Part shown: positions 14,768 through 64,000 of the stretch, in pieces | Layout: every line of letters starts with the position of its first letter | Position numbering within the stretch: position 1 is the first letter of the stretch | From: Thiemannella venezuelensis | GTDB lineage: Bacteria; Actinomycetota; Actinomycetes; Streptosporangiales; Streptosporangiaceae | DNA length: 64,000 bases | Reading direction: 5' to 3' | NCBI RefSeq assembly: GCF_014203605.1 | Contig: NZ_JACHJJ010000002.1 | Coordinates: forward strand, 124,001-188,000 | Made by a program: the position numbers and the translations under genes | Notes under the pieces: model-generated | Told to the model about the DNA's origin: nothing | What the model saw: only the letters and a program-made list of their open reading frames with translations | Databases searched by the model: none

Positions 14768-14817
14768 GGCGGTGCCGTTCGGCCGGGCACCGGCCCGGCG
14801 TCACCCGGCGGTGCGGT

Positions 14818-43464: not shown

Positions 43465-43526
43465 CCCGCGGCCCGCACCGCGATCCGCGCCCTGTACGGC
43501 CCGCACCTCCTCGGCTAGTCTACCAA

Positions 43527-43542
43527 CCAAGCATTCGCTTGG
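43527..43542. promoter_or_regulatory. TetR-type palindrome upstream of the 43560 gene
   Basis: CCAAGC-ATTC-GCTTGG is a perfect 6-4-6 inverted repeat 18 bp before the start. The AAGC-N4-GCTT core recurs at 45997-46008. Confidence 0.6.
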
Positions 43543-43559
43543 GATGGGGAGGCGCCTCC

Positions 43560-44318
43560 ATGCGGCGTGGGATCTACCTGATCGAAGAGGTCGACTTCCG
43601 GCCGATGAACTCGCGCAGGCCGCTGGAGTACCTGACCTGGCTCACCCGCTACAAGAAGGAGGACGAGACCCTCGACGCCCCGGAGCTGACCACGGGGCTG
43701 TCGATCAGATCGCGCGAGATCGACCTCGTCGGAGCCTTCTACGCCGTGGGCATCACCGGCCACCCGCAGTTCAGGGCCGTCACGCTCTGGGACTGCCACG
43801 GCGGCTGGGACGGCGGCTGGCGGCAGATGATGAACATCTACGACGGCGTCGACGACAGGCTGTTCCTGTCCGACATCGACGACCTGCGCTTCTCCGCCTT
43901 CTCCCGGCCGCTCGGCGCGGTCCGGGGCAGCCCGGCCCTGGCCGACATCACCGCCGAGGGCTACGCCGCGCCGTTCTACCTCTTCGAGAGCGCGCGGGTC
44001 CGCCCCGGCGCGGCCCTGGACTACCTCGACGCCGTCCGCGAGGAGCGCGCACCCGTCCTGGCCGACCACGGCCACCGCCCCGTCGGCCTGTACGAGGTGC
44101 TGTTCTGCGACAGCGAGGTGGTCACGGTCTGGGGCATGTCCCTGGACGCGCACCTGGCCGTGCAGCGCGCCCGGGACGCCGCCCTCGGCCTGGACGACGA
44201 GGCCGAGCCGGACGAGCGCCTGCTCGCCTGGGGCAGGCGCGCCAGGGACTTCCTCGACGGACCCTGGCGCGAGACCCTCCTGGCCCCCTTCCCCGGCTCC
44301 CGCCTCTCCCCGGTGTGA
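43560..44318 (+). CDS. Hypothetical protein with ferredoxin-like (NIPSNAP-type) features
   Basis: A 252-residue soluble protein with two similar halves. Each has a strand-rich segment ending in W (FRAVTLWDCHGGWDGGW and VGLYEVLFCDSEVVTVWGMSLDAHL), a layout seen in tandem dimeric alpha-beta barrel (NIPSNAP-like) proteins. I am not certain of the family. ATG 43560 follows GGGGAGG at a good distance; the frame is open 76 codons further up. The TetR-type palindrome upstream links it to the oxidative operon at 46 kb. Confidence 0.7.
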   Translation: MRRGIYLIEEVDFRPMNSRRPLEYLTWLTRYKKEDETLDAPELTTGLSIRSREIDLVGAFYAVGITGHPQFRAVTLWDCHGGWDGGWRQMMNIYDGVDDRLFLSDIDDLRFSAFSRPLGAVRGSPALADITAEGYAAPFYLFESARVRPGAALDYLDAVREERAPVLADHGHRPVGLYEVLFCDSEVVTVWGMSLDAHLAVQRARDAALGLDDEAEPDERLLAWGRRARDFLDGPWRETLLAPFPGSRLSPV

Positions 44319-45026: not shown

Positions 45027-45941
45027 TCAGCCTCCCGCGAGCTCCTCGACGACCGGGGTGAAGGCCTCCAGGTCCCGCTCGTGGTGGAGTACGTAGTAGG
45101 ACAGGTCGTGGGTGTCGCGCCAGTGCCGGAGCTTGTCCGCGACGTCCCCGCGGGTGCCGAGCAGGACCTGGGGGGTCTCGTCCTGCCGGGAGGAGTCGGC
45201 GGCGCTCCACGGCTCGTCCCGTCTGCGCTCGCCGAGCTGCTGGACGCTGGTGCCCAGCTCGATCGCGCCGTAGCGCTCCGCCGCGGCCCGCCGTACCACG
45301 TCGATCTTGGCGAGGAACGCGGCCAGGCCGCCGTCCGCGCCGTCGGGGCCGGTGCCGTCCGCCCTGACCCGCATGCCGAGGTTGATCACGTCGGCCTCGC
45401 GGGCGGCGAGCCGGAGCATGCGCGGCCCGCCGCCGCCGAGCAGCAGCCGGGGGCCGGGCCGCCGGAACGGCTTGGGGTGCTGGTCCAGCCCGTCGATCCG
45501 GTAGTGCTCGCCGCGGAAGGTGAACGGGCCGTCGCCCCAGAGCCCCTTGAGGACGGCGATCGCCTCGGCGAGCCGGTCCACCCGGGTGCCCGGCGGATCG
45601 AGCGCCAGGCCCGCGGCGGCGTAGTCGGCGGCCATCCAGCCGGTGCCCAGGCCGAGCTCCAGGCGGCCCTCCGAGAGCAGGTCGACGGTGGCCGCCTCCT
45701 TGGCGAGCACGGCCGGGTGCCGGAAGTCGTTGGCGAACACCAGGGTGCCGACCTTCAGCCGGCTGGTCGCGCAGGCCGCCGCGGTCATCGCCGCGACCGG
45801 GGCCAGGCGCGGGCCCACCAGGTGGTCGGGGACGAGCAGCACGTCGAACCCGGCCCCCTCCAGGCGCCGGGCCTTCTCGGCCCACTCCCTGCCCGAGGAG
45901 GCCTGCCTGACCACCGCGGCGAACCGGAACGGCCGATCCAT
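45027..45941 (-). CDS. LLM-class F420-dependent oxidoreductase
   Basis: A 304-residue luciferase-like monooxygenase-fold protein (FDVLLVPDHLVGPRLAPVAAMTAAACATSRLKVGTLVFANDFRHPAVLAKEAATVDLLSEGRLELGLGTGW). That pattern is typical of F420-dependent enzymes in actinobacteria. ATG 45941 has AGGGAGG 9 nt upstream; two earlier ATGs are too close to that site. It is divergent from the PhyH operon and shares its operator region. Confidence 0.87.
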   Translation of the reverse strand: MDRPFRFAAVVRQASSGREWAEKARRLEGAGFDVLLVPDHLVGPRLAPVAAMTAAACATSRLKVGTLVFANDFRHPAVLAKEAATVDLLSEGRLELGLGTGWMAADYAAAGLALDPPGTRVDRLAEAIAVLKGLWGDGPFTFRGEHYRIDGLDQHPKPFRRPGPRLLLGGGGPRMLRLAAREADVINLGMRVRADGTGPDGADGGLAAFLAKIDVVRRAAAERYGAIELGTSVQQLGERRRDEPWSAADSSRQDETPQVLLGTRGDVADKLRHWRDTHDLSYYVLHHERDLEAFTPVVEELAGG

Positions 45942-45993
45942 CGGCATCATCCTCCCTGAGAGGTCGGGACGGGGTCCTCCGGCAATTCTGCAT

Positions 45994-46008
45994 ACCAAGC
46001 GCTTGCTT
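45994..46008. promoter_or_regulatory. KstR2-like / TetR-type operator in the divergent promoter
   Basis: ACCAAGCGCTTGCT (45994-46007) fits the published KstR2 pattern AnCAAGnnCTTGnT and contains the 10-bp palindrome CAAGCGCTTG. The alternative core AAGC-GCTT-GCTT matches the site at 43529-43540. It lies 30 bp before the PhyH gene and about 53 bp from the luciferase-like start. Confidence 0.6.
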
Positions 46009-46037: not shown

Positions 46038-46817
46038 ATGGCTGACGAGACCCCGGTCCGCGACGTGACCGACGACGAGGTCGCCTTCTTCGGGGAGAAC
46101 GGCTGGGCGCGGCTGCCGCGCCTGGTGGAGCCCGGCCACGCGGCGCTGCTCCGCGAGCGGGCGATGGAACACCTCGCCGCGCGCACCCGGGCCGTCACCT
46201 CCCAGGTGGACCTGGCGTTCGGGCAGTCCAGGGACATCGCCGAGACCGACGGGCACTTCAGGGCGCTGGCCCACGCCCCCGCGCTGGGCCGCTCGGCCGT
46301 ACGGCTGCTGCGCGGGGTGGCCGCGGTGCGGGTGCAGGTGACGAACCTGCTGATCAAGGAGCCGGAGGGCGGGGGGCACGGCGCCACCGAGTTCCACCAG
46401 GACTTCCCGTGGATGCCGATGGACCGCTCGGCGATGCTCACCGTCTGGCTCGCGCTGGCGGACGTGCCCGCCGACATGGGCTCCCTGCGGTTCTACAGCG
46501 GCTCCCACCGGTACGGCGTGCTCGGCCGCTCCTTCGCCCGCGACGGCGACGACCAGCTCAGCCAGCACCCCTGGCTCAAGGAGCTGGAGCTCTCCCCGCC
46601 GCTCGACCTCGCCGCCGGGGACGCGACCGTGCACCACGCGCTGACCGTGCACGGAGCGGCGGCCAACCGCCGCGACAGCCCCCGGCTGTCGTTCACCGTC
46701 ACCTACTTCGACGCCGGAGCCCTCTACACCGGCACGCCGTACCGGCAGACCGACGGTCTGGGCCTGGCCGTCAACGAGCCGTTCGAGCACCCGAAGTTCC
46801 CGGTGGTCGCCCAGTGA
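46038..46817 (+). CDS. Phytanoyl-CoA dioxygenase (PhyH) family protein
   Basis: A 259-residue Fe(II)/2-oxoglutarate dioxygenase. Ligands for iron are visible as His120 and Asp122 (FHQDFPW) and the distal His205 (TVHGAAANRRDSPRLSFTVTY), with the Arg for 2-oxoglutarate in the same stretch. It would hydroxylate an unknown substrate. GTG 46017 is an alternative start. It is the first gene of a five-gene operon: the stop overlaps the phosphotriesterase start (GTGA). Confidence 0.85.
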   Translation: MADETPVRDVTDDEVAFFGENGWARLPRLVEPGHAALLRERAMEHLAARTRAVTSQVDLAFGQSRDIAETDGHFRALAHAPALGRSAVRLLRGVAAVRVQVTNLLIKEPEGGGHGATEFHQDFPWMPMDRSAMLTVWLALADVPADMGSLRFYSGSHRYGVLGRSFARDGDDQLSQHPWLKELELSPPLDLAAGDATVHHALTVHGAAANRRDSPRLSFTVTYFDAGALYTGTPYRQTDGLGLAVNEPFEHPKFPVVAQ

Positions 46818-47824
46818 ACGCCGGGCACCCGGTGGACGCCGAGCGTCCCGGGGCCGTGGAGACCGTCGCGGGTCCCGTGGCGGACGTGGGCGCGACGCTG
46901 ATGCACGAGCACGTCTTCGGGCTCAGCCCGGAGATCCTGTGGAACTGGCCGGACATCCCGGAGGGCTGGAACCTGGAGACGCGGGCACGCGAGGCCGCGG
47001 ACAGGCTGACCGAGCTGAAGGAGCACGGCGTCGACACGATCGTGGACCTGACCGTGATCGGTCTCGGCCGCTACGTGCCCGCCGTCCAGCGGGTGGCCGA
47101 GCTGACCGAGGTCAACATCGTCGCCGCGACCGGCCTGTACACCTACGACGCGCTCCCGCCCTACTTCGGCAACCGCGGCCCCGGCTCGCTGTTCGGCGGC
47201 CCGGACCGGCTGGCCGAGTTCTTCGTCAGGGACATCACCGAGGGCATCGGCGAGACCGGGGTGAAGGCGGGCGTCCTCAAGTGCGCCTCCGACCACCTGG
47301 GCATGACCGCCGGCTGCGAGCGGGTCTTCCGCGCGGTCGCCGAGGCGCACCGGGCCACCGGCGCGCCGATCTCGACCCACTCCCACAGCGCCTCCCGCGG
47401 CGGGCTGGAGCAGCAGAGGCTCCTGGCCGCCGAGGGCGTGGACCTGGGCCGGGTGGTGATCGGCCACGCCGGGGACTCCACCGACCTGGCCTACCTGGAG
47501 GAGCTCGTCGCGGGCGGCTCCTACCTGGGCATGGACCGCTTCGGCATCGACACGATCAGCTCGTTCGAGGACCGGGTGGCGACGGTGGCGGCCATGTGCG
47601 AGCGCGGCCACGCCGGGCGCATGGTCCTGTCCCACGACTCCTACTGCTTCAACGACCGCTTCGACCACGAGGTGGTACGGCGCCGCCACCCCGACTACCA
47701 CCTGCTGCACATCTCCCGGGACGTCCTGCCCGAGCTGCGCAGGCGGGGCGTGACCGAGGAGCAGATCCACCAGATGCTCGTCGCCAACCCCCGCGACATC
47801 CTCACCCCGCGGGAGCCGTACTGA
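46814..47824 (+). CDS. Phosphotriesterase-family (lactonase-like) metal hydrolase
   Basis: A 336-residue TIM-barrel hydrolase with all expected ligands: HEH at residues 31-33, a candidate bridging Lys in GVKAGVLKC, STHSHS, VIGHAGDSTD and LSHDSYC. PTE-like members mostly open lactones, while a few cleave phosphotriesters. GTG start by overlap with the PhyH stop. In this operon it may open a lactone or ester formed by the oxygenases; that role is inferred. Confidence 0.9.
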   Translation: MNAGHPVDAERPGAVETVAGPVADVGATLMHEHVFGLSPEILWNWPDIPEGWNLETRAREAADRLTELKEHGVDTIVDLTVIGLGRYVPAVQRVAELTEVNIVAATGLYTYDALPPYFGNRGPGSLFGGPDRLAEFFVRDITEGIGETGVKAGVLKCASDHLGMTAGCERVFRAVAEAHRATGAPISTHSHSASRGGLEQQRLLAAEGVDLGRVVIGHAGDSTDLAYLEELVAGGSYLGMDRFGIDTISSFEDRVATVAAMCERGHAGRMVLSHDSYCFNDRFDHEVVRRRHPDYHLLHISRDVLPELRRRGVTEEQIHQMLVANPRDILTPREPY

Positions 47825-47860
47825 GCCCGCCGCGGCCGAACCCGGAGCAGGGAGCCCATC

Positions 47861-49060
47861 ATGATCGACGCTGACGACTTCGACGTCGGCGCGGCCTGGC
47901 ACGTCGCCGCGCCGTACGACTTCCTGCGCAGGCTCCGCCACGAGCGGCCGGTCTTCCGCAGCGAGCACCTGGGCGCCTACGTCCTGACCCGGTACGCCGA
48001 CGTCCGCGCCGCCTACGGCGACCCGAGGCGGTTCTCCTCCGAGGGCTCGCTGACCATCTCCCGGAGCCTGTCCGAGGAGACGCGCCTCAAGCTGGGCGAG
48101 CACGGCTCGTTCCTGTCGAGTTTCGTGGCCAACGTGGACCCGCCCGTGCACACCCGGCTGCGCCGCTCCGTCTCGCGGGCCTTCACCCCGCGTGCCGTCG
48201 CCGCGCTGGAGCAGCGCTTCCGGGCGCTGAACGGGGAGCTGCTCGACCGGGTGGCCCCGGACGGCGGCGGCGACCTGGTCGCGGAGATCGCGCACGTGCC
48301 CTCGGCCAAGCTCACCGCCCGCTTCATCGGCGTTCCCGAGGAGGACGAGGAGTTCGTCAAGCAGCACGTGAAGGACTGGTTCCAGCTGTTCCTCTCGCCG
48401 CAGCCGCCCGACCGGCAGCTCGCGCTGGCCGAGAGCTTCCTGGTCTACCTGGACTACGTGGACGGGCTCGTCGCCTCCCGGGCGAAGGATCCCCGCGACG
48501 ACTTCACCTCCCTGATGACCTCCCTGATCGGCACCGAGCTCTCGCACCGCGAGGTGGTCGAGCTGATCTCCACGATCCTGCTCGGCGGCAACGACACCGT
48601 CCCCAACCAGCTCGGCAACAGCGTGCTGCGGCTGCTGCGCGAGGGCGTCTGGCCGGTCCCGCCGGAGCGGGTCCGCAACGCGGTCGAGGAGTGCATGCGC
48701 GTCGACGGCGCCAGCCTGGGCTCCTTCCGCTACGCCAGGAGCGACGTCGAACTGCACGGCACGACGATCCCGGCCGGGGCGCTCTGCCTGCTCTCCACCG
48801 ACTCCGCGGCCCACGACGAGACCGTCTTCGCCGAGCCCGAACGGTTCGTGATCGACCGGCCCAACGCCGACGCGCACATGACCCTGGGCTACGGCATCCA
48901 CTTCTGCGTCGGCGCGGCCCTGGGCCGGCTCCAGCTCCGCACCGCCCTGGAGGTCCTCGGCGAGCGCCTCCCGGGGCTCCGGCTGGTCCCCGGACAGGAG
49001 ATCGCCTACCGCGCCTCGATCGTCGGCCGCGGCCTGACCGCGCTGGCCGTGGAGTGGTGA
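47861..49060 (+). CDS. Cytochrome P450
   Basis: A 399-residue soluble bacterial P450. The heme thiolate is Cys349 in LGYGIHFCVGAALG, where the usual first Phe of FGxGxHxCxG is Leu. The I-helix reads LLGGNDTV, and the K-helix EECMR supplies the ExxR pair. The family and substrate are not recognised, but actinobacterial P450s of this type hydroxylate terpenoids, steroids or polyketides. The start ATG is preceded by GGAGCAGGGAGCC. The stop overlaps the SDR start. Confidence 0.95.
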   Translation: MIDADDFDVGAAWHVAAPYDFLRRLRHERPVFRSEHLGAYVLTRYADVRAAYGDPRRFSSEGSLTISRSLSEETRLKLGEHGSFLSSFVANVDPPVHTRLRRSVSRAFTPRAVAALEQRFRALNGELLDRVAPDGGGDLVAEIAHVPSAKLTARFIGVPEEDEEFVKQHVKDWFQLFLSPQPPDRQLALAESFLVYLDYVDGLVASRAKDPRDDFTSLMTSLIGTELSHREVVELISTILLGGNDTVPNQLGNSVLRLLREGVWPVPPERVRNAVEECMRVDGASLGSFRYARSDVELHGTTIPAGALCLLSTDSAAHDETVFAEPERFVIDRPNADAHMTLGYGIHFCVGAALGRLQLRTALEVLGERLPGLRLVPGQEIAYRASIVGRGLTALAVEW

Positions 49061-49878
49061 CGCACGCGGCGGCGCGCTTCGCCGGGAAGGTCGCGCTGGT
49101 CACCGGTGCGGGCTCGGGGATCGGCGCGGCCACCGCGCACCGGCTCGCCGCCGAGGGCGCCCGGGTCGGGGTCGCCGACCTGCGGCCCGCGGGCGCGCGC
49201 TCGGTCGCCGCGGCGATCGAGGCCGCGGGCGGTACGGCGCGCGCCCTCCGCTGCGACGTGTCCGACGAGGCGGCCGTGGCGGCGGCCGTCGCCGAGCTGA
49301 CCGGCTCGTTCGGGCCGCTGGACGTGCTGCACTCCAACGCCGCCTGCCTGGACCGCGAGGTCTACGGCCGGGACCTGGACCTGCTCGACATGGACGTGGA
49401 GGTCTGGGACCGGACGATGGCGGTCAACCTGCGCGGCGCGATGCTCACCGTCAAGCACGCGGTCCCGGCGATGGCCGACGGCGGCGCGATCGTGCTGACC
49501 TCCTCGGTCTCGGGCCTGGTCGGGGACGCCGACCACGCGGCCTACGGCGCCTCCAAGGCGGCGCTGACCGGGCTCGTCCGCTATGTCGCCACCATGTACG
49601 GCTCCCGCGGCATCCGGTGCAACGCGGTCGCCCCCGGCCTGGTCATGACCGACCTGGCGAAGGCCGTGATGACGCCGGAGCGGCTGGCGGAGAAGGCGGC
49701 CGAGCGCGTCCTGCCGTGGGCGGCCGAGCCGGGCGACGTGGCCGCGCTCGTCGCCTTCCTCGCCTCCGGTGAGGCGCGCTGCGTGACCGGCCAGACGGTC
49801 GTCGTCGACGGCGGCACCACGGCGCACCGGCCCGAACACGCGATCAGGACATGGTCTCGTGAGAAGCTGGACAAGTGA
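49057..49878 (+). CDS. Short-chain dehydrogenase/reductase (SDR)
   Basis: A 273-residue classical SDR. TGAGSGIG near residues 16-23 binds NAD(P); the catalytic Ser lies in SSVSG, with YxxxK as YGASK. A C-terminal extension (HRPEHAIRTWSREKLDK) is unusual. GTG 49057 overlaps the P450 stop. It could oxidise an alcohol made by the P450 or dioxygenase; the substrate is unknown. Confidence 0.92.
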   Translation: MTHAAARFAGKVALVTGAGSGIGAATAHRLAAEGARVGVADLRPAGARSVAAAIEAAGGTARALRCDVSDEAAVAAAVAELTGSFGPLDVLHSNAACLDREVYGRDLDLLDMDVEVWDRTMAVNLRGAMLTVKHAVPAMADGGAIVLTSSVSGLVGDADHAAYGASKAALTGLVRYVATMYGSRGIRCNAVAPGLVMTDLAKAVMTPERLAEKAAERVLPWAAEPGDVAALVAFLASGEARCVTGQTVVVDGGTTAHRPEHAIRTWSREKLDK

Positions 49879-50729
49879 CGATTTCTGTGGGTCTGGTGGG
49901 CGCCGGCCCGTGGGCGGAGAAGGTGCACGCGCCGGCGCTGGCGGCCGGGCCGCACACCCGGCTGGCGGGAGTGTGGGCCCGCAGGCCCGAGGCGGCGGCC
50001 CGGCTGGGCGCCCCGGTCTTCGAGCGGATCGAGGCGCTGTTCGACTCCTGCGAGGCGGTGGTCTTCTCGGTGCCGCCCGACGTGCAGGCCGAGCTGGGAG
50101 TGATGGCGGCCAAGGCGGGCAAGGCGCTGCTGCTGGAGAAGCCGCTCGCGGCCGACCTGGACGGCGCGCGGCGGCTCTCCGACGCCATCGGGGAGGCGGG
50201 CGTGGCCTCCCAGATGTGCCTGACCTGGCGCTACTCGGCGGCGGTGCGGGCCTTCCTGGCGCGGGTCTCGGCCATCGAGCCGTTCGGCGGGCACGCGGCC
50301 AGCATCTCCGGCGCCATGCTCGGCGGAGACTTCGCCAGCCCCTGGCGGCTGGAGCGCGGCGCCGTCCTCGACGTCGGCCCGCACATGATCGACATGCTGG
50401 ACGCCGCGCTCGGCACGGTGACCGGGGTGCGCGCGCACGGCAACCCGACGGGCTGGGTCGGCCTGCTGCTGGAGCACGAGACCGGCGCGGTCAGCGAGGC
50501 CTCGCTCTGCCTGAGCGCGCCCGGGGAGACCCCGCCCTCCCACGTGGACGTCTACGGCAGGCTCGGCCGGGAGTCCGTCGACCGCAACGCCCTGGGCCCC
50601 GACGTCTTCACCACGATGATCGCCGAGTTCGCCGGGACCGTGCGCAACGGCGGCGGACACCCGCTCGACGCCCTGCACGGCCTGCGCCTCCAGGAGATCA
50701 TCGCCGCAGCCGAGGCGCAGCTCGGCTAG
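49875..50729 (+). CDS. Gfo/Idh/MocA family oxidoreductase
   Basis: A 284-residue NAD(P)-dependent dehydrogenase. The Rossmann motif VGLVGAGPWAEKVHAPAL is at residues 5-22, with EKPLAAD (about residues 97-103) holding the family's catalytic Lys. The C-terminal domain follows. The GTG start overlaps the SDR stop. It is the last gene of the tightly packed operon, and the LacI gene after it points the other way. Confidence 0.9.
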   Translation: MTISVGLVGAGPWAEKVHAPALAAGPHTRLAGVWARRPEAAARLGAPVFERIEALFDSCEAVVFSVPPDVQAELGVMAAKAGKALLLEKPLAADLDGARRLSDAIGEAGVASQMCLTWRYSAAVRAFLARVSAIEPFGGHAASISGAMLGGDFASPWRLERGAVLDVGPHMIDMLDAALGTVTGVRAHGNPTGWVGLLLEHETGAVSEASLCLSAPGETPPSHVDVYGRLGRESVDRNALGPDVFTTMIAEFAGTVRNGGGHPLDALHGLRLQEIIAAAEAQLG

Positions 50730-50813: not shown

Positions 50814-51866
50814 TCAGGCGGACTCCCGGACGACGAGGGCGGGTTCGAAGATGATCGAGGTCGCCGGCCGCTCGGGCTGGTCGACCCGGGCGAGCAGCAG
50901 GCGGGCCATCTCGGCGGCCATGTCCTCCACGGGGTGGCGGACGGTGGTGAGCGCCGGACGGCTGGCGGCCGCCACGCTGCTGTCGTCGAAGCCGATCACG
51001 GCGACGTCCTCCGGCACCCTGAGGCCGTGCTGCCGGAGCACGAACAGAGCGGCCTGGGCCATCACGTCGTTGGCGGCGAAGACGCCGTCGAGGCCGGGGT
51101 GCTCGGCGAGCAGCCGCTCCATGGCGGCCTCCCCGCTGTGGTAGGTGAAGTTCCCCTCGGCGCAGGGGATGTAGGGGTGGCCGTGCACGGCCATGGCGTC
51201 CCGGAAGCCGGCCAGCCGGGCCTGCGCGGCCGGCAGGTTGGGCGGGCCGGTGATGGTCGCGACCCGCCGCCGGCCCCGGGCGACGAGGTGGTCGGCGGCG
51301 AGCTTGGCCCCGGTCCGGTGCTCGACGTCGACGTAGCTGATCGGGATCGGCTCGGCGGGTCTGGCGAAGAGCACGGCGGGCAGGCCCGCGTCGGCGAGGA
51401 GCCGGGGGAGGAGGTCCTCGGCGTGGGTGGAGACCAGCAGTGCCCCGTCGGCGTTGCCCTGGCGCAGGTAGGTGAGCACCTGGGCGCGGGTCTCGGCGTC
51501 GTCGGCGAACATCAGGATCGGGTGGATGCCCCGGGGGCGGAGGAACCCGATGATGCCGGAGGCCACCCGGCCGAAGAACGGGTCGGTGAAGACCTGGCCG
51601 GGGGAGGGCTCGCCCGGCTCCTCCCCGCTGGCGCCGGAGACGACCAGGGCGACCACGCCGGCGCGGCGGGTCACCAGGGAGCGGGCCGCCTGGTTGGGGA
51701 CGTAGCCGGTGGCGGCGACGGCCTGCCTGACCGCCTCCTGGATCGCGGGGTCGACGTTTCGGATGCCGTTGATCACCCGGGAGACCGTGGCGCGGGAGAC
51801 GCCCGCCGCCCGGGCCACGTCCTCCAGGGTGGGGGATGATCCTGAGGGCGGTGGGGCTGCGTTCAC
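50814..51866 (-). CDS. LacI family transcriptional regulator
   Basis: A 350-residue LacI/GalR repressor. The helix-turn-helix and hinge lie at the start (SPTLEDVARAAGVSRATVSRVINGIRNVDPAIQEAVRQAVAATGYVPNQAARSL), followed by a sugar-binding periplasmic-type domain. GTG 51866 is preferred: TATAAA sits 6 nt upstream, fitting a leaderless transcript; ATG 51884 is an alternative. The divergent sugar importer with two GAGAGCGCTCTC operators is the expected target. Confidence 0.93.
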   Translation of the reverse strand: MNAAPPPSGSSPTLEDVARAAGVSRATVSRVINGIRNVDPAIQEAVRQAVAATGYVPNQAARSLVTRRAGVVALVVSGASGEEPGEPSPGQVFTDPFFGRVASGIIGFLRPRGIHPILMFADDAETRAQVLTYLRQGNADGALLVSTHAEDLLPRLLADAGLPAVLFARPAEPIPISYVDVEHRTGAKLAADHLVARGRRRVATITGPPNLPAAQARLAGFRDAMAVHGHPYIPCAEGNFTYHSGEAAMERLLAEHPGLDGVFAANDVMAQAALFVLRQHGLRVPEDVAVIGFDDSSVAAASRPALTTVRHPVEDMAAEMARLLLARVDQPERPATSIIFEPALVVRESA

Positions 51867-52042
51867 CGGGACTTTATAGCACATTCGGAAATCGCTATCC
51901 CATGATCTCGCGGCTCTGACCTGGAACTCCGCAGCAGGACGCGGGGTGGAGGCTGCTGGTTCCCGTGATTTTAACGCCTTAGGCTGCAGTGTCCCGTTAG
52001 ATAGCCGTGATCGTCGGGATCAAAGGTGCTCATCCGATCGAG

Positions 52043-52060
52043 TTAGAGAGCGCTCTCTAA
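52043..52060. promoter_or_regulatory. LacI-type operator 1
   Basis: TTAGAGAGCGCTCTCTAA is a perfect 18-bp palindrome of the LacI/GalR type (central CG), about 190 bp from the regulator start and 380 bp before the importer start. Confidence 0.82.
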
Positions 52061-52179
52061 TGGGTTGCGGCACCCTTGTCGCAGGTCGTCGCCGTCAGGG
52101 AAGGGCGGAAATGCCCTTTCTGGAGTGCTCTTTGTTACGCAAAGGTGCCCAGAAGGTTTCGGATCGGTGCGGGAGAGCC

Positions 52180-52230
52180 TTGACATCATTTGCCCGTCGG
52201 GTGCACGCTCTCTCACGGAGAGCGCTCTCC
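52180..52230 (+). promoter_or_regulatory. Importer promoter with LacI-type operator 2
   Basis: TTGACA (52180-52185) and CACGCT (52204-52209) with an 18-bp spacer form a plausible promoter. GGAGAGCGCTCTCC (52217-52230) overlaps the expected transcription start, ideal for repression. Confidence 0.75.
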
Positions 52231-52438
52231 CTTCGTTGCCGTCACGCACGGCGGACACCCCCCACACCGAGGAGAGGTCGTGCACCTGACGCGCAGTTCA
52301 GGCGGGTACCGGACCGGAACGTCCGGAACCTCCCGCTAGGCCGGCACGGCCGCAAGGCGTGCCCGGTTCGGGGCGGCGCGCCGCAGGCCGGCCGCGGTCC
52401 CTCTCCTCCCTCACCATCAAGGACCCAAGGAGGGTTCC

Positions 52439-53737
52439 ATGGGCAAGCTCCGCCCCCGGTTTCTCGCCCCGATGCTCGCCGCGGTCGCGCTGACCGTGGG
52501 CGTGGCCGCCTGCGGCGGTGACGGCGGCACCGGCACCGGCACCGCCGCGTCCGGCGCGCCGGCCGAGAAGATCAAGCTCACCGTCGCGCTGTTCAGCGAC
52601 TTCCACTACGCGCCGCTGTACGAGGAGTTCAAGAAGACCCACCCCAACGTGGAGATCGTGGAGCGCCGCGCGCAGTTCAACGACCACCACACCAACCTCA
52701 TCACCCAGCTGGCCACCGGCGCGGGCGCCGCGGACGTGGTGGCCGTCGAGGGCGGTTACGTCGGCGCCTTCACCCCCACGCCGGACAAGTTCCACAACCT
52801 CAAGGACTACGGCCTGGACAAGCGGCAGAGCGAGTACCTGGACTGGAAGTGGCAGCTGGGCGTCTCCAACGACGGCTCCGCGCTGCTGGGCCTGGGCACC
52901 GACGTCGGCGGCCTGGCCATGTGCTACCGCCCCGACCTGTTCGAGAAGGCCGGCCTGCCCACCGCCCGCGACGAGGTGTCGGCGCTCTGGCCCACCTGGG
53001 ACCAGTACATCGAGACGGGCAAGAAGTTCGTCGCGGCCAAGGTGGAGGGCGCCAAGTTCACCGACGGTCCCGGCGAGCACTTCCGCGCCATGGTCGAGCA
53101 GGCCCCGGTCGGCTACTACGACGAGCAGTACAACGTCATCGCGGGGACCAACCCCGAGGTGCGCAAGGCCTACGACATGGGCGTCAGGATCGTCGACGAG
53201 GGACTCTCGGCCAAGCTCGCCGCCTTCACTCCGCCGTGGAACACCGGCATCGCCAAGGGCACCTTCGCCACCATGGTCTGCCCCGCCTGGAAGACCGGCA
53301 CGATCAAGGACCAGAACCCCGGTGAGGGCGCCTGGGACATCGCCGCGGTGCCCGGCGGCGGCGGCAACCAGGGCGGCACCCACCTGATGCTGCCCAAGCA
53401 GGGCAAGCACCCCAAGGAGGCGGCCGAGCTCATCGACCTGCTGACGAGCAAGGAGAGCCAGATCAAACTCTTCAAGGAGGCCAGCGCGCTGCCCTCGCTG
53501 CCCGCCCTGTACGACGACCCGGCGGTGTCGGAGTTCGTCAACCCGTACTTCGGCAACGCGCCGATCGGCAAGATCTTCACCGACGCGGCCAAGGCGCTCA
53601 AGCCGCAGAAGGTGGGCCCCAAGGCCGGCGACATCCTGAAGGCCTTCGGTGACGGCCTGCAGCGGGTCGAGCAGGGCAAGCAGAACCCGGAGGAGGCCTG
53701 GGCCCAGGCGCTGAAGGACGTCGACCGGGTCAAGTAG
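52439..53737 (+). CDS. Sugar ABC transporter substrate-binding lipoprotein
   Basis: A 432-residue family-1 (SBP_bac_1) binding protein. The N terminus ends in a lipobox (VGVAACGG), so it is membrane-anchored outside the cell. The core KIKLTVALFSDFHYAPLYEEFKKTHPNVEIV, and later DPAVSEFVNPYFGNAPIGKIF, are typical of sugar binders. The start ATG follows AAGGAGG. A 147-bp GC-rich gap with stem-loop potential separates it from the permeases. The sugar is unknown. Confidence 0.92.
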   Translation: MGKLRPRFLAPMLAAVALTVGVAACGGDGGTGTGTAASGAPAEKIKLTVALFSDFHYAPLYEEFKKTHPNVEIVERRAQFNDHHTNLITQLATGAGAADVVAVEGGYVGAFTPTPDKFHNLKDYGLDKRQSEYLDWKWQLGVSNDGSALLGLGTDVGGLAMCYRPDLFEKAGLPTARDEVSALWPTWDQYIETGKKFVAAKVEGAKFTDGPGEHFRAMVEQAPVGYYDEQYNVIAGTNPEVRKAYDMGVRIVDEGLSAKLAAFTPPWNTGIAKGTFATMVCPAWKTGTIKDQNPGEGAWDIAAVPGGGGNQGGTHLMLPKQGKHPKEAAELIDLLTSKESQIKLFKEASALPSLPALYDDPAVSEFVNPYFGNAPIGKIFTDAAKALKPQKVGPKAGDILKAFGDGLQRVEQGKQNPEEAWAQALKDVDRVK

Positions 53738-53769
53738 CCCGGCCCCGCGCGCCCGCCGCCGGACCCCTG

Positions 53770-53835
53770 TCCCGCCCGTCCGCCCGCCCGTCCGCCCGCC
53801 GGTCCCGGTACCGCCGGGCGGGCGGGCAGGCGGCG
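53770..53835 (+). terminator. GC-rich stem-loop after the binding-protein gene
   Basis: CCGCCCG-type runs face GGGCGGGCGGG-type runs around a TCCCGGTA loop. It may stabilise or attenuate the mRNA, as often seen after binding-protein genes. Base pairing is imperfect. Confidence 0.4.
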
Positions 53836-53884
53836 TCCGCTCCCCGACCCCTCCCCGCCCCCACCCGTCACCGAAGGATCTGCC

Positions 53885-54856
53885 ATGGCCACCCGCGCAC
53901 CCGACCGCCCGGCGGCGGTCGCATCGGGCGAACCGGTGCGACCTCGCCGCCGCCTCCGGCGCCACCTGGTCCACCAGCTCGACGTCAAGGGCTCCCCGTA
54001 CGCGTACGTGGCCCCGTTCTTCCTGCTCTTCTCCGCGTTCGGGTTGTTCCCGCTCGCCTACACCGCCTGGGTGAGCCTGCACGAGTGGACGCTGCTGGCC
54101 GACGAGCACCCCTTCGTCGGCCTGGACAACTTCAGGACGCTGCTGGCCGACGACTACTTCTGGAACGCCGCGTTCAACACCCTGTCCATCGGGGTGCTGT
54201 CCACCGCCCCCCAGCTGCTGCTGGCCATCTGGCTGGCCCACCTGCTCAACCGGCCGCTGCGGGCGCAGACCTTCTTCCGCGTCACGCTGCTGCTGCCCAA
54301 CGTCACCAGCGTGGTCGCGGTGGTGGTCATCTTCAGCCAGCTGTTCGGCCGGGACTTCGGCATGATCAACTGGATGCTGTCCTGGTTCGGGGTCGGAGGC
54401 GTCGCCTGGAACGAGGGGGTGGCCAGCTCCCACGCGGCCATCTCCATCATGATCATGTGGCGGTGGACCGGCTACAACGCGCTGATCTTCCTGGCGGCCA
54501 TGCAGGCCGTACCGCGTGAGCTGTACGAGGCGGCCACCATCGACGGTGCGGGCAGTATGACCCAGCTCCGCCGGATCACGATCCCGATGATCAAGCCCAC
54601 GATCGTCTTCGTCGTCATCACCTCGACGATCGGCGCCATGCAGGTGCTCGCCGAGCCGCTGCTCTTCGGCAGCTACAGCCCCACGGGCGGCGTGGACCGG
54701 CAGTACCAGACGCTCGCGCTGTTCATCTACGAGAACTTCGTCAAGCTCGACTTCGGCTACGCCTCCGCCATCTCCTGGATGATGTTCGTCTTCATCGTCG
54801 TGGTCGCGGGCGTCAACTACCTGCTGACCCGACGCACGAAGGGAGGGCTGGTATGA
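53885..54856 (+). CDS. Sugar ABC transporter permease 1 (MalF type)
   Basis: A 323-residue membrane permease with about six helices (first near residues 42-62). The EAA loop is visible at about residues 214-235 (MQAVPRELYEAATIDGAGSMTQLRRIT). It pairs with the next permease. The ATG follows AAGGATCTGCC. Its stop overlaps the next start (ATGA). Confidence 0.93.
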   Translation: MATRAPDRPAAVASGEPVRPRRRLRRHLVHQLDVKGSPYAYVAPFFLLFSAFGLFPLAYTAWVSLHEWTLLADEHPFVGLDNFRTLLADDYFWNAAFNTLSIGVLSTAPQLLLAIWLAHLLNRPLRAQTFFRVTLLLPNVTSVVAVVVIFSQLFGRDFGMINWMLSWFGVGGVAWNEGVASSHAAISIMIMWRWTGYNALIFLAAMQAVPRELYEAATIDGAGSMTQLRRITIPMIKPTIVFVVITSTIGAMQVLAEPLLFGSYSPTGGVDRQYQTLALFIYENFVKLDFGYASAISWMMFVFIVVVAGVNYLLTRRTKGGLV

Positions 54857-55713
54857 CCGCCCCGCGGCCCACGGCCCGTACGGCCAGGCGCGGCGCCCCC
54901 GGCGGCGCCCGGCGGCTCACCTACCTCACGCTGCTGGCGGTGGCGTTCTTCTCGGCGGTCCCGCTGTACTACAGCGTCGTGGTGGCCTCCCGCGACAACG
55001 CGGCCCTGGCCGAGGTCCCGCCCCCGCTCCTGCCCGGCGGGAACTTCTTCGCCAACGTCGCCCGCGTGTTCGACACCGTGCCCTTCGCGCTGGCGCTGGC
55101 CAACTCCGTCCTGGTCTCCGGGACCATCGCGCTGGCGGTGATGTTCTTCTCCACGCTGGCCGGGTTCGCCTTCGCAAAGCTCCGCTTCCGCGGCCGCAAC
55201 GCCCTGCTGCTGCTCACGGTGGCGACCATGATGGTCCCCACCCAGCTCGGGATCATCCCGCTCTACATGCTCATGGTGAAGCTGGAGTGGACCGGCACCA
55301 TGTACGCGCTGATCGTCCCCGCGCTGGTCAACGCCTTCGGGGTGTTCTTCATGACGCAGTACCTGTCGCGGGCGCTCCCGACCGAGCTGCTGGAGGCGGG
55401 CCGGGTCGACGGCTGCACCACCTGGGGGCTGTTCTGGCACGTGGTGCTCCCGGTCGCCCGCCCCGCGGCCGCCGTGCTCGGCATGCTCACCTTCATGTCC
55501 GCCTGGAACGACTACTTCTGGCCGCTGGTCGTGCTGACCCCGGAGAACCCCACCGTGCAGGTCGCCCTGTCCACGCTGGCCGCCGGGTACGTCAACGACT
55601 ACGTGCTCGGCCTGGCCGGCACCGCGCTCGGCACGCTGCCTCTGGTCATCGTGTTCGGCCTGCTCGGCAAGCAGATCATCGGAGGCATCATGCAGGGAGC
55701 CGTCAAGGGGTAG
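54853..55713 (+). CDS. Sugar ABC transporter permease 2 (MalG type)
   Basis: A 286-residue carbohydrate permease with six helices. The EAA loop is at about residues 178-198 (LPTELLEAGRVDGCTTWGLFWHVV). It completes the channel. No ATPase follows; in actinomycetes such importers use a shared ATPase (MsiK) encoded elsewhere. A strong hairpin follows. Confidence 0.94.
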   Translation: MTAPRPTARTARRGAPGGARRLTYLTLLAVAFFSAVPLYYSVVVASRDNAALAEVPPPLLPGGNFFANVARVFDTVPFALALANSVLVSGTIALAVMFFSTLAGFAFAKLRFRGRNALLLLTVATMMVPTQLGIIPLYMLMVKLEWTGTMYALIVPALVNAFGVFFMTQYLSRALPTELLEAGRVDGCTTWGLFWHVVLPVARPAAAVLGMLTFMSAWNDYFWPLVVLTPENPTVQVALSTLAAGYVNDYVLGLAGTALGTLPLVIVFGLLGKQIIGGIMQGAVKG

Positions 55714-55965: not shown

Positions 55966-56051
55966 GCGCCGGCGCTGTCAACCCTCGTGGGAAAGGGTGA
56001 TCCGTCATGTTCCAGCGGGTCCTCGGTTCCAGCAGAAGAAAGGACCCTCTC

Positions 56052-57005
56052 GTGAGGCCCGTACGTACCGCCTTCGCGGGCGCGCTTCTCGGCGTGCTGG
56101 CCCTGGCCGGATGCGGTCAGAGCTCGACCACCGCCCAGCCTGGCGCCCCCGCCTCCGCCTCCGCGACCCCCTCGGCGGCGGGCGCGTTCCCCGTCACCGT
56201 CGAGGCGGCCAACGGCCCGGTCACCCTCGCCGAGCGGCCCGAGCGGATCGTCTCCCTCTCGCCCACCGCCACCGAGACCCTGTTCGCCGTCGGCGCCGGA
56301 GCCCAGGTCGTCGCGGTCGACGACCAGTCGAACTTCCCGGCCGAGGCGCCCAAGACCGACCTGTCGGGCTTCAAGCCGAACGCCGAGGCGGTCATCGCGC
56401 AGAAGCCCGACCTGGTCGTGCTCGCCAACGACGTCGAGGGCATCGTGGCCAAGCTGGCGAAGGTCGGCGTCCCGGTGCTGCTGGAGCCCGCCGCCACCAA
56501 GCTCGACGAGGCCTACGACCAGATCGCCGACCTCGGCGCGGCCACCGGCAACACGGCCAAGGCCGAGGAGGTCGTGGCCGGGATGAAGAAGAAGATCGAC
56601 GAGATCGCGGCCGCCGCGCCCAAGGACAAGAAGCTCACCTACTATCACGAGCTGGACACCACGCCCTACTCGGTGACCTCCACCACCTTCCTCGGCCAGG
56701 TCTATGCCCTGTTCGGCCTGACCAACATCGCCGACAAGGCCCCCGACCTGGCCGGCGGCTACCCCAAGCTCTCCTCCGAGTTCGTCGCCCAGGCCGACCC
56801 GGACCTGATCTTCCTCGCCGACACCAAGTGCTGCGGCCAGTCCAAGGACACCATCGCCAAGCGTCCCGGCTGGTCCAAGCTCTCCGCCGTCGAGAACGAC
56901 CGGGTCATCGCCCTGGACGACGACGTCGCCTCCCGCTGGGGGCCGCGCGTGGCCGACCTCGCCCAGCAGGTCGGCGAGGCCGTCCAGAAGGCCGCCTCCG
57001 AGTAA
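56052..57005 (+). CDS. btuF: Vitamin B12-binding lipoprotein BtuF-like
   Basis: A 317-residue periplasmic-type binding protein of the BtuF/FepB fold. The signal ends in a lipobox (LALAGCG). ERPERIVSLSPTATETLFAVGAGAQVVAVDD is typical of BtuF-like proteins, and KCCGQSKDTIAKRPGWSKL follows later. GTG 56052 is chosen as AAAGGA lies 8 nt upstream, inside the riboswitch-controlled hairpin; ATG 56007 falls within that hairpin. B12 or corrinoid is the inferred ligand, from the riboswitch and CbiZ. Confidence 0.9.
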   Translation: MRPVRTAFAGALLGVLALAGCGQSSTTAQPGAPASASATPSAAGAFPVTVEAANGPVTLAERPERIVSLSPTATETLFAVGAGAQVVAVDDQSNFPAEAPKTDLSGFKPNAEAVIAQKPDLVVLANDVEGIVAKLAKVGVPVLLEPAATKLDEAYDQIADLGAATGNTAKAEEVVAGMKKKIDEIAAAAPKDKKLTYYHELDTTPYSVTSTTFLGQVYALFGLTNIADKAPDLAGGYPKLSSEFVAQADPDLIFLADTKCCGQSKDTIAKRPGWSKLSAVENDRVIALDDDVASRWGPRVADLAQQVGEAVQKAASE

Positions 57006-61015: not shown

Positions 61016-62701
61016 TCACCGGGTGGCCGCTCCGTCCTCCCGTACCGTGACGCCGTAGTCGCGGGCCGCCCCCTCGGCCGTGACCTTCCCGGCGCGCAGG
61101 TCGGCCGCCACCTCCTCCGGCGGCCGGTCGTACGGCGAGCCGATGCCGCCGCCGCCCGTGGTCTCCACCACGAACGCCTCGCCGGCCGCGAACAGCACGT
61201 TGTTGACCTTCGAGTCGAGCCGCTCCAGCGTGCCGTCCGCGTGCCGCCGGTAGAAGCCGCCGACCCGGCCCGGCAGGCCGCCGGAGCGGCCCGGGGGAGG
61301 GGTGCGCAGCCGGTCGCCCCGGGTGGTGACGTGCGCGTCGGTCAGGAAGCGGATCACCGTGCGGGAGCCGAGCCCGCCGCGGTGGCGGCCGGGACCGCCG
61401 GAGTCGGGGACGGTCTCCACCGACTCCACGATCAGCGGGCAGCGGGTCTCGACCGGTTCGGCCTGCGGGACCGAGTTGCGCCCGATGCCGAAGTGCACCC
61501 CCGTCGCGTCCGGCCCGTCCTTGCCCTGCCGGGCCCCGACCCCGCCGAAGTCGTAGGACAGGTGGATCCAGTACGGCGCGCGCACGGCCGCGATGGAGAA
61601 CGGCTGCAGGATGCCGCTGGCGGCGATGGCCCGCTCGGGCACGGCGTCCGACAGCGCCTGGAAGATCGCCTCCATGGCCGCGTAGATCGGTACGAACCGG
61701 CCGCCGCAGGGATGCGGGGAACGGGCGTCGAGCAGCGAGCCGGGCGGGAGCCGTACCTCGATCGCCCGCAGGCAGCCGTCGTTCATCGCGATCGAGGGAT
61801 CGAGGAAGCAGCGGACCGCGAACACCGCGGCGGCCAGCGACTGCGAGGCCGAGGCGTTGATCGCCGCCGGGACCTGCGGGTCCGTCCCGGTGAAGTCCGC
61901 GACCACCCGTCCCCGCTCCACGGTGACCGCCACCCGGACCGTGTGGGAGCGGGCGGTGTCGATGCCGTCGTCGTCGATCGGGTAGGACGAGGCGTAGCGG
62001 CCCGGCGGCAGGGCGGCCAGGGCGGCGCGGGTCCTGGCCTCGGTGTGGTCGAGGTAGTCGTCGATGCCCCGCGCGAGCCCGGCGGGGCCGTACTCGCCGA
62101 GCATCGCCTCGATCCGGGCGGCGGCGACGGCGGTGCCCGCGATGAGCGCGCGCACGTCGCCCATGACCTTGTCCGGAGTGCGGCTGTTGGCCCGCAGGAT
62201 CGCCTCGATCGCCGGTTCGATCCCCCGGGCGGTGGCCAGGCGGACCGGCGGGAGCTGGAGGCCCTCCAGGAAGACGTCGGTGGCCAGCGGGGCCATGCCG
62301 CCCGCGGACAGGCCGCCGAGGTCGGAGACGTGGATCATCGTGGCGGTGAAGTAGGCGGGGGAGCCGCCGACGAAGACCGGCCGGTAGACCAGCAGGTCGT
62401 TGGTGTGCACGCCGCCCCGGTAGGGGTCGTTGAGCACGAAGACGTCGCCGGGGCGCATGACGGCGGCCGGGATGTCCTTCAGCAGCTCCGGCAGGGCGAC
62501 CTTGAGCGCCATGCTGTTCATGAGCGTGGTGGCCATCGACTGGGCGACCAGGCGGCCGGAGGCGTCGAGGACGGCCGCCGAGGCGTCCGAGCCCTCGACG
62601 ATGAACGTCGAGTACGCCGACCGGACGACGACGATGCTGGCCTCCTCCGCCGCCACGACCAGCGCGTTCCGCAGCACCTCGGCGGTCAGCGCGTCGCTCA
62701 T
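61016..62701 (-). CDS. Hydantoinase B/oxoprolinase family protein (HyuB-like)
   Basis: A 561-residue subunit of hydantoinase/oxoprolinase/acetone carboxylase-like enzymes. Typical parts are RSAYSTFIVEGSDASAAVLDASGRLVAQ, PGDVFVLNDPYRGGVHTNDLLV and FGIGRNSVPQAEPVETRCP. With HyuA it should open cyclic amides such as hydantoins or 5-oxoproline, using ATP. The start overlaps the HyuA stop (ATGA). Confidence 0.92.
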   Translation of the reverse strand: MSDALTAEVLRNALVVAAEEASIVVVRSAYSTFIVEGSDASAAVLDASGRLVAQSMATTLMNSMALKVALPELLKDIPAAVMRPGDVFVLNDPYRGGVHTNDLLVYRPVFVGGSPAYFTATMIHVSDLGGLSAGGMAPLATDVFLEGLQLPPVRLATARGIEPAIEAILRANSRTPDKVMGDVRALIAGTAVAAARIEAMLGEYGPAGLARGIDDYLDHTEARTRAALAALPPGRYASSYPIDDDGIDTARSHTVRVAVTVERGRVVADFTGTDPQVPAAINASASQSLAAAVFAVRCFLDPSIAMNDGCLRAIEVRLPPGSLLDARSPHPCGGRFVPIYAAMEAIFQALSDAVPERAIAASGILQPFSIAAVRAPYWIHLSYDFGGVGARQGKDGPDATGVHFGIGRNSVPQAEPVETRCPLIVESVETVPDSGGPGRHRGGLGSRTVIRFLTDAHVTTRGDRLRTPPPGRSGGLPGRVGGFYRRHADGTLERLDSKVNNVLFAAGEAFVVETTGGGGIGSPYDRPPEEVAADLRAGKVTAEGAARDYGVTVREDGAATR

Positions 62702-64000
62702 GCGTCCTCCCCGGCCAGGGCGCCCGGCCGGGGCGCGCGGACGCCGGCCCGCCCGGCCGCCGTGCGGACCGCGGTGAGCGTCACCGCCGTGTCCTCCCCC
62801 AGGACGGCCCGCCACCCGGGCGGCACCACGATCGTGGACTCCGCGTCCTCCACGATCGCCGGGCCCTCGGCCTCCCGCAGGGAGGCCCTGGTGAACACCG
62901 GCGTCTCGACGTACCCTCCGGCCTCGGTGAAGTAGGCCGCCCGCCGCGCGGCGGCCGGGGCGCCGCGCCCCGCCGTGCCCCCGCCCGCCGTGCCCCTGCC
63001 CGCAGTGCCCCCGCCCGCCGCGGGGACGGCGGGGCGGGGGGCGGCCTGGGTGACGCGGACGCGGTAGCCGACGACCTCGACCGGGCCCCGCTGGGCGATG
63101 CCGTACACCTGCTCGTACCTGGCGGAGAACCGCTCGGCGAGGTCGCCGGGGGAGCCGGTCCAGGGGACGGTGAGGTCGTGGGCCTGGCCGATGAAGCGGA
63201 CGTCGGCCGAGCGGTCCACCCGCACGCCGGGGGCGCCGAGCCGTACGCCCAGATCGGCGGCGGCCGCCTCGGCGAGCTCGGAGAACACCCGCTCGGGGTC
63301 GGCGTCCAGCGCGGAGCGCACGCGGTCGGCCGACAGGTCGCCGGCCAGCAGCCCGGCGGCCGAGGCGACGCCGCAGTGGGCCGGGACGACCACGGTGGAG
63401 ATGCCGAAGCGGGCGGCGACCCGGGCGGCGTGCATCGGGCCCGCACCGCCGAAGGCGACCATCGCGAAGCCGCGCGGGTCGATGCCGCGCTGGACGGTCA
63501 CCACGTGCACGGCCGAGCCCATCGAGGCGTTGGCGATCTCGTGGACGGCGTGCGCGGCCTCGGCCCGGGAGACGCCCAGCGGCCCGGCCAGGCGCAGGTC
63601 GATCGCCTTCTCGGCGAGCTCCCGGGCGAGCGGCATGGCGCCGCCAGCGAAGGACGCGGGGTCCAGGTAGCCGAGCACCAGGTCGGCGTCCGTCACGGTC
63701 GGCTCCTCGCCGCCCAGGCCGTAGCAGGCCGGGCCGGGCGCCGAACCCGCCGAGCGCGGGCCGACGCGCAGCGCGCCGGCCGGATCCACCCACGCGACGC
63801 TGCCGCCGCCGGCCCCGACCTCCGCCAGGTCGATGGCGGGCGTCTTGACCGGCACGCCGGTCCCGGCCCGGCGTCCGCCGAAGCTGCCCTTGCCGCCGAC
63901 GTGGAACTCGTGGGTGATCTCCGGCCTGCCGTTCCTGATCACGCAGGCCTTGGCCGTCGTGCCGCCCATGTCGAAGGAGATCGCGTCCGGGTGCCCGGAC
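62698..64000 (-). CDS. Hydantoinase A/oxoprolinase family protein (HyuA-like, 5' partial)
   Basis: A HyuA-type ATP-dependent subunit, cut by the right edge; at least 433 residues are visible, including the nucleotide-binding FDMGGTTAKACV and GPGPACYGLGGEEPTVTDADLVLGYLDP stretches. The N-terminal part of the protein lies beyond 64000. About residues 315-330 hold a GGGTAGRGTAGGGTAG insert encoded by 15-bp repeats. It is the first gene, with HyuB coupled after it. Confidence 0.9.
   Translation of the reverse strand, partial: SGHPDAISFDMGGTTAKACVIRNGRPEITHEFHVGGKGSFGGRRAGTGVPVKTPAIDLAEVGAGGGSVAWVDPAGALRVGPRSAGSAPGPACYGLGGEEPTVTDADLVLGYLDPASFAGGAMPLARELAEKAIDLRLAGPLGVSRAEAAHAVHEIANASMGSAVHVVTVQRGIDPRGFAMVAFGGAGPMHAARVAARFGISTVVVPAHCGVASAAGLLAGDLSADRVRSALDADPERVFSELAEAAAADLGVRLGAPGVRVDRSADVRFIGQAHDLTVPWTGSPGDLAERFSARYEQVYGIAQRGPVEVVGYRVRVTQAAPRPAVPAAGGGTAGRGTAGGGTAGRGAPAAARRAAYFTEAGGYVETPVFTRASLREAEGPAIVEDAESTIVVPPGWRAVLGEDTAVTLTAVRTAAGRAGVRAPRPGALAGEDA
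62971..63015. repeat. Three 15-bp repeats in the HyuA-like gene
   Basis: CGCCGTGCCCCCGCC occurs three times with single changes, encoding a Gly/Thr/Ala-rich insert. Confidence 0.85.

Follow-up and report, generated by a model that had tools for sequence, protein, structure and literature searches.

A conserved oxidative operon with a KstR2-type operator in Thiemannella venezuelensis, a candidate lactone-opening branch of a sterol-type catabolic regulon

The stretch of DNA analysed here (64,000 nucleotides of the actinomycete Thiemannella venezuelensis, contig NZ_JACHJJ010000002.1, positions 124,001 to 188,000; hereafter the window, whose own numbering is used for positions) contains a run of five genes coding for a PhyH-type Fe(II)/2-oxoglutarate dioxygenase (PhyH), a phosphotriesterase-family hydrolase (PTE), a cytochrome P450, a short-chain dehydrogenase/reductase (SDR) and a short Gfo/Idh/MocA oxidoreductase (Gfo/Idh). 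These genes form a real operon, far above chance, and sequence evidence gives good support for its predicted membership in the regulon of a KstR2-like TetR repressor. We propose, with a probability of about 50%, that it constitutes the oxidation and lactone-opening branch of this regulon, which would act on a sterol-like or other cyclic isoprenoid and feed its products, as coenzyme A (CoA) thioesters, to the ring C/D enzymes IpdABC.

A first-pass annotation had described the five open reading frames and their families, all of which lie where it placed them, with Pfam in agreement for each. The GTGA overlaps at 46814, 49057 and 49875 and the 36 bp gap between the PTE and P450 genes are also as it gave them, so that three genes start on the preceding stop, and not four of the five as it had counted. 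The divergently oriented gene for an LLM-class flavin/F420 oxidoreductase (LLM), and the operator between LLM and PhyH, were not part of that annotation.

Conservation of the operon and its operator

A PTE-based scan of GTDB genomes returned 55 loci with a PhyH ortholog directly 5' of PTE, nearly all from Streptosporangiales, plus two from Dactylosporangium; counts out of 56 add the locus of the window. PhyH and PTE are adjacent in 55/55 related loci and the full order PhyH-PTE-P450-SDR-Gfo/Idh, counted from locus maps, is found in 27 of the 55. Among the 56 loci the partners are present at different frequencies (P450 in 54, LLM in 49, the gene at 43560 in 39, SDR in 38 and Gfo/Idh in 37). Contig ends account for some of the absences, and membership of the SDR and Gfo/Idh genes in the operon is optional. 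In a GTDB family sample of 299 genomes, PhyH was detected at E <= 1e-40 in 60 genomes of 17 genera, 58 of which have clear orthologs (E <= 1e-90). No operon partners were observed beside more distant PTE relatives (mycobacteria, Acidobacteria and others; ~60% identity). Common descent accounts for most of the flanking gene order; in loci where that order is disrupted (Planotetraspora L055, Dactylosporangium L052 and L056, Actinoallomurus and Actinomadura), the LLM, PhyH, PTE and 43560 genes tend to remain grouped.

The residues expected for catalysis are kept in all the enzymes: His120, Asp122 and His205 (HxD...H iron triad) and Arg216 (2-oxoglutarate arginine) in the 56 PhyH sequences; His31 and His33 (HxH), Lys156, His218, Asp275 and others in the 56 PTE orthologs, the remaining lone histidine of the family not being mapped with certainty; the heme ligand Cys349 and Glu277xxArg280 in 54 P450 sequences; Ser151, Tyr164 and Lys168 in 38 SDR sequences; and Glu88-Lys89 and Asp166/His170 in 37 Gfo/Idh sequences. 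The active-site residues of LLM are likewise kept across the compared orthologs. Since the gene order recurs, PhyH and PTE are always adjacent and the catalytic, metal and heme residues are invariant, the operon stands far above chance. Its recurrence bears out the earlier suggestion of one conserved multi-step oxidative operon, and neither of the outcomes named as speaking against that suggestion was seen: the order is widespread instead of being found only here, and no described operon with these genes was found in the searched literature.

The sequence upstream of PhyH is TACCAAGCGCTTGCTTTA, whose 14-bp core (ACCAAGCGCTTGCT) matches exactly the KstR2 motif AnCAAGnnCTTGnT (Kendall et al., 2010; PMC3068626); it is the sole perfect KstR2-type site within the window. 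In 51 of the 55 loci a perfect site is found no more than 200 bp 5' of PhyH, whereas 0 of 5500 block-shuffled controls had one. The 14-mer ACCAAGCGCTTGNT occurs 5 times in the host genome and 99 times in 18 relatives; the corresponding counts for the reversed pattern are 0 and 5. The 43560 gene is preceded by an operator-like site in 24 of 38 loci: an imperfect inverted repeat in the window, versions with one mismatch at about -26 to -41 in Nonomuraea and others, and a perfect site in Planotetraspora (L055/L185). Upstream of hyuA, at the end of the window, a 10-bp core of the motif (CAAGCGCTTG) is present in 12 of the 13 genomes whose upstream sequence is complete, including the host, where it lies ~55 bp upstream of the gene, beyond the window end.

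Further CAAGCGCTTG sites precede lipid-transfer-thiolase-like genes in L203 (3356; G000:C18:80355) and L244 (5586; G000:C16:20585), which are likely to be extra members of the regulon. In Dactylosporangium (L052 3085-3174 and L056 9105-9216), the gene divergent from PhyH codes for a different TetR (TetR_C_11), and another palindrome-like stretch, TTTACGTATCGTATCGTAAAC, lies in the PhyH promoter; the control of PhyH has therefore been rewired there.

Host genes of the acyl-CoA ligase, enoyl-CoA hydratase, lipid-transfer thiolase/DUF35 and CYP125-like types are preceded by the operator. The groups of genes that bear it in the host and its relatives comprise a TetR gene divergent from a FadA6-like thiolase or, in Dactylosporangium, from an IpdA-like gene, a flavin reductase/acyl-CoA dehydrogenase divergent from a lipid-transfer thiolase and DUF35, DapB-like, Rv3169-family, P450, EchA19-like, acyl-CoA ligase and CaiB-like genes, the PhyH operon and, in Planotetraspora, a second LLM gene (LLM2) divergent from a 43560-type gene. 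Sites at ipd/fadA6 genes are found in Nonomuraea, Streptosporangium, Planotetraspora and Dactylosporangium. The TetR protein at the operator sites is a KstR2 homolog (4w97/4w1u, 174 bits), of which the host genome codes for two: one on contig C18 (87313-87990), 83% identical to the Nonomuraea TetR, and one on contig C29 (103121-103732), closer to KstR2 (198 bits) and part of an echA20-ipdA-ipdB-ipdC...kstR2-fadA6-like cluster. The canonical C29 copy was considered as the repressor of the PhyH operator and rejected, as its cluster has no perfect site; the C18-type TetR is the likelier candidate owner, preferred because its relatives carry the operator in their own promoter.

The first-pass annotation had noted that there was no CoA ligase or thiolase and that no standard pathway was matched. 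Such genes are indeed absent inside the operon, but the operator links it to a CoA ligase and a thiolase elsewhere in the genome, and in Dactylosporangium, where a place outside any known pathway likewise finds no support, LLM-PhyH-PTE lies in one cluster with AMP-type and ADP-type CoA ligases, a lipid-transfer thiolase with DUF35, a cyclase-family protein, further LLM proteins and a KstR2-like TetR. Orthologs of the additional genes of this cluster are found on contig C18 of the host, where the thiolase-DUF35 pair bears the operator.

The operator-bearing P450 of contig C22 matches CYP125 (537 bits to 8vxi, "CYP125MRCA", and 370 bits to steroid C26-monooxygenase/CYP125 chains), and Ltp2-like (617 bits to 6ok1_A), ChsH2-like, two acyl-CoA dehydrogenase and CoA ligase genes are clustered near it. 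IpdA, of the HIP (IpdAB) module of the aerobic 9,10-seco steroid pathway, was identified in 19/19 operon-bearing genomes tested, by matches of ~300 bits to the CoA-transferase alpha subunits 6co6/6coj/6con, which we take to be IpdA. In the family sample (ipdA in 151/299 genomes), the gene is present in 58/58 genomes with a PhyH ortholog and in 93/241 of the others (Fisher p 9e-21, kinship ignored).

Flanking genes of the operon and other neighbours

The LLM gene and the gene at 43560, whose product has a predicted dimeric alpha-beta-barrel (DABB) fold, belong with the operon, and the two hyu genes probably do (Table 1).

Table 1. Operon genes, operators and associated genes, with positions in the window
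Feature	Position	Strand	Evidence or remark
Operator-like inverted repeat before the 43560 gene, imperfect (ACCAAGC-ATTC-GCTTGGG)	43526..43543	.	2 mismatches to 14-mer
Protein without Pfam family, predicted tandem DABB (NIPSNAP/HemQ/monooxygenase-like fold)	43560..44318	+	model pLDDT 80
LLM-class flavin/F420 oxidoreductase, divergent from PhyH across the operator	45027..45950	-	TIGR03621, 282 bits (cut-off 213)
Operator ACCAAGCGCTTGCT, between LLM and PhyH	45994..46007	.	exact fit to KstR2 motif AnCAAGnnCTTGnT
PhyH-type Fe(II)/2-oxoglutarate dioxygenase, operon gene 1	46038..46817	+	PF05721, 84 bits
PTE-family (PLL-like) hydrolase, probable lactonase	46814..47824	+	PF02126, 323 bits
Cytochrome P450	47861..49060	+	PF00067, 65 bits
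SDR dehydrogenase, putative NAD type (from motif)	49057..49878	+	PF13561, 222 bits
Short Gfo/Idh/MocA oxidoreductase, final gene	49875..50729	+	PF01408, 61 bits
HyuB-type subunit, shares operon with HyuA	61016..62701	-	PF02538, 480 bits
HyuA-type hydantoinase/oxoprolinase subunit, cut by window end	62698..63999	-	PF01968

In Planotetraspora and Dactylosporangium, LLM and PhyH-PTE point in the same direction. The nearest solved chain to LLM is 9g64, an F420-dependent oxidoreductase, and its match to the camphor enzyme 4uwm (3,6-diketocamphane monooxygenase) is marginal (E = 8e-4). A Pfam search with the 43560 protein gave no match and its structural model matches 3mcs, 2pgc, HemQ and NIPSNAP in Foldseek. 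The association of its gene with the operon is kept through rearrangements, and distant homologs from other actinobacterial classes (L105, L106, L107 and L109) sit among CaiB, SDR, thiolase, CoA-ligase, NTF2-like and LLM genes, a neighbourhood that fits lipid catabolism. The best named relative of HyuB is the caprolactamase beta subunit, with a score far under its cut-off; in Planotetraspora L055, P450, an SDR and HyuB-HyuA adjoin LLM-PhyH-PTE.

Two other PTE-family proteins were observed in the host. One, distant (~28-34% identity), is encoded in the window at 21454-22359, adjoining a TIM-barrel isomerase-like gene (20483-21451); the other, a 55% identical paralog (G000:C8:141396-142394; L104 7406-8398), lies beside genes for an acyl-CoA dehydrogenase, an APH-like protein and an SDR, and a copy similar to it adjoins the PhyH operon in several Actinomadura. 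Conserved synteny extends to the DUF5753/DUF397, histidine phosphatase and B12-transport neighbours, with no sign of a function in the system of the operon. At 56007-59706, genes for a FecB-FecCD-ATPase type transporter precede that for CbiZ in an apparent cobamide uptake/remodelling operon, whose synteny is kept in nearly all relatives. At 13095-16191, two neighbouring minus-strand genes code for secreted proteins that resemble each other and have probably arisen by tandem duplication; they lie next to the gene of a LysR-type regulator.

Proposed role and alternative explanations

From the regulon and its genomic company we infer a repressor, an effector, a substrate class and a series of steps as follows. 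A CoA-thioester effector would free the KstR2-like TetR from the operator between LLM and PhyH; PhyH and P450 would hydroxylate the ring system of a sterol-like or other cyclic isoprenoid, and SDR and Gfo/Idh would convert the alcohols to ketones. LLM could then contribute an F420- or FMN-dependent step, either a reduction or a lactone-forming oxygenation, and PTE may hydrolyse the lactone. HyuAB is a candidate for an ATP-dependent ring hydrolysis or carboxylation, and the DABB-fold protein may be a small oxygenase or isomerase-like helper. The CoA ligase, thiolase and hydratase genes of the regulon, located elsewhere in the genome, would take over afterwards.

Several observations weigh against this proposal. 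The operator-linked KstR2-like TetR is commoner than ipdA (191 against 151 of the 299 family genomes), and the regulon may therefore extend beyond steroids. The ipd cluster of the host has the second, closer KstR2 and no perfect site, and the bare 10-bp core, with 13 occurrences in the host genome against 19 of the reversed control, is not above chance and was therefore not used alone as evidence, about 12 of the 13 sites preceding catabolic-type genes by inspection. There is no substrate-specific homology for PhyH, P450, SDR or Gfo/Idh, and no ferredoxin or reductase for the P450 within the operon. KshA (PF19298) gave no match in the host genome, and of 19 operon-bearing genomes only 2 had a strong one. 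KshA, the 3-ketosteroid 9-alpha-hydroxylase, is the classical ring-B opener, and the classical steroid pathway is therefore not present. The operon is thus found in the company of sterol-type side-chain and ring C/D genes, for the most part with no classical ring A/B opener.

A bolder version of the proposal, in which LLM, PhyH, P450, SDR, PTE and HyuAB would be a replacement ring A/B (or lactone-forming) module that opens a sterol or triterpenoid without KshA and feeds IpdABC, seems to us rather doubtful. No obvious candidates for KstD and HsaACD were seen by eye in gene lists covering ~370 kb (contigs C3, C16, C18, C22 and C29), a genome-wide search not having been made. A literature search on hydroxyindane-lactone (HIL/sitolactone) as substrate gave nothing usable. 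Bacterial breakdown of steroids and terpenoids is known mostly from mycolic-acid actinobacteria and proteobacteria, and here a ring C/D module and side-chain genes co-occur, in the absence of KshA, with a conserved and unstudied operon. Should the operon act in such a pathway, it would point to an undescribed route of cyclic-isoprenoid opening, to new lactonase and oxygenase activities of use in steroid chemistry, and to a regulon directly testable with one repressor and one operator.

The strongest competitor, which we hold to be possible although distinctly less probable than our proposal, gives the KstR2-like TetR a general role in regulating the catabolism of lipophilic acids or terpenoids. 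The substrate of the operon would then be a plant or fungal compound other than a steroid, e.g. a terpenoid lactone, whose degradation has only CoA-type enzymes in common with the steroid genes. The wider distribution of the TetR, the scarcity of KshA among operon carriers and the presence of the operator before generic genes (OYE-type reductase and CaiB-like) would agree with such a regulator, but CYP125-like and EchA19-like genes (and FadA6/IpdA in relatives) share the operator, and every one of the 58 genomes with a PhyH ortholog has ipdA.

PhyH and P450 could instead act as in antibiotic pathways, the operon tailoring a specialised metabolite: the nearest PDB chains of PhyH are SnoK/SnoN, from nogalamycin biosynthesis, and TamI and CftA are among the mixed actinobacterial P450s (<=180 bits) nearest to ours. 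We consider this improbable, since no scaffold-forming gene recurs nearby in the 55 loci, 17 genera share the core and the operator is of catabolic type. It is equally hard to favour a quorum-quenching or detoxifying role for PTE, although a PTE-family lactonase under a TetR-type operator follows the logic of the Rhodococcus qsd operon (PMC6262395; PMC6476934): two oxygenases and two dehydrogenases would be superfluous for N-acyl homoserine lactones, and the regulon includes CYP125-like and Ipd-type genes.

Adjoining the operon, at 50814-55713, a LacI-family repressor gene is divergent from those of a sugar-type ABC transporter, and palindromes of the form GAGAGCGCTCTC lie at ~52047-52059 and ~52219-52230. 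These genes probably make up a sugar uptake system of their own, which was inserted in the host genus. A common role in breaking down an unusual sugar, with PTE as sugar lactonase and Gfo/Idh and SDR as sugar dehydrogenases, would be in keeping with this adjacency and with the sugar enzymes of the Gfo/Idh and PTE families, but is very improbable, as, among the 55 loci, only 2 (from Planomonospora and Planobispora) have LacI/ABC orthologs near the operon, the palindromes before the ABC genes are unlike the PhyH operator, and PhyH and P450 have no obvious role in sugar breakdown. A reading of AAGCGCTT at 45997 as a LacI operator was discarded, given that LacI/ABC is not conserved beside the operon and the sites fit KstR2.

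Comparison with known systems

The KstR2 regulon of mycobacteria and Rhodococcus, for ring C/D steroid catabolism, comprises 15 genes in one chromosomal region (PMC3068626; PMC5380842). It shares with the system described here the operator consensus AnCAAGnnCTTGnT, a KstR2-like TetR and, in relatives of the host, sites at FadA6- and IpdA-type genes; in contrast, the regulon here is scattered, includes the CYP125-like, HyuAB and LLM genes and the PhyH operon, and leaves the host's own ipd cluster without a perfect site. Phosphotriesterase, P450 and phytanoyl are unmentioned in PMC3068626 and PMC5380842, and the operon genes are not among the 15 described ones. Because defining features of each were looked for and are lacking, we placed the operon neither in the described KstR2 regulon nor in the 9,10-seco pathway.

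Homologs of the sterol side-chain proteins CYP125, EchA19 and Ltp2-ChsH2 (igr operon) are encoded in the host genome, the CYP125-like and EchA19-like genes bearing the operator, whereas the ring A/B opener KshA is absent from this host. In mycobacteria, the side-chain genes belong mainly to the KstR regulon. PTE resembles the PLL family and its nearest solved chain, mycobacterial PHP (Phosphotriesterase homology protein; 4if2, 415 bits over 316 residues), with the metal ligands kept; the loci of its ~60% identical relatives in mycobacteria, Acidobacteria and others differ in the absence of the operon partners.

The Rhodococcus qsd operon codes for the PTE-type lactonase QsdA, the acyl-CoA ligase QsdC and the TetR repressor QsdR (PMC6262395; PMC6476934). 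A PTE-family lactonase and a CoA ligase under a TetR repressor are thus common to both systems, but qsd is without such oxygenases or dehydrogenases and addresses another substrate class. Camphor- and cineole-type pathways combine a P450, an SDR, a type II Baeyer-Villiger LLM and lactone hydrolysis. Although the LLM protein of the host is TIGR03621/F420-like and only marginally similar to 4uwm, the proposed enzyme logic is the same: hydroxylation, ketone formation, lactone formation and opening.

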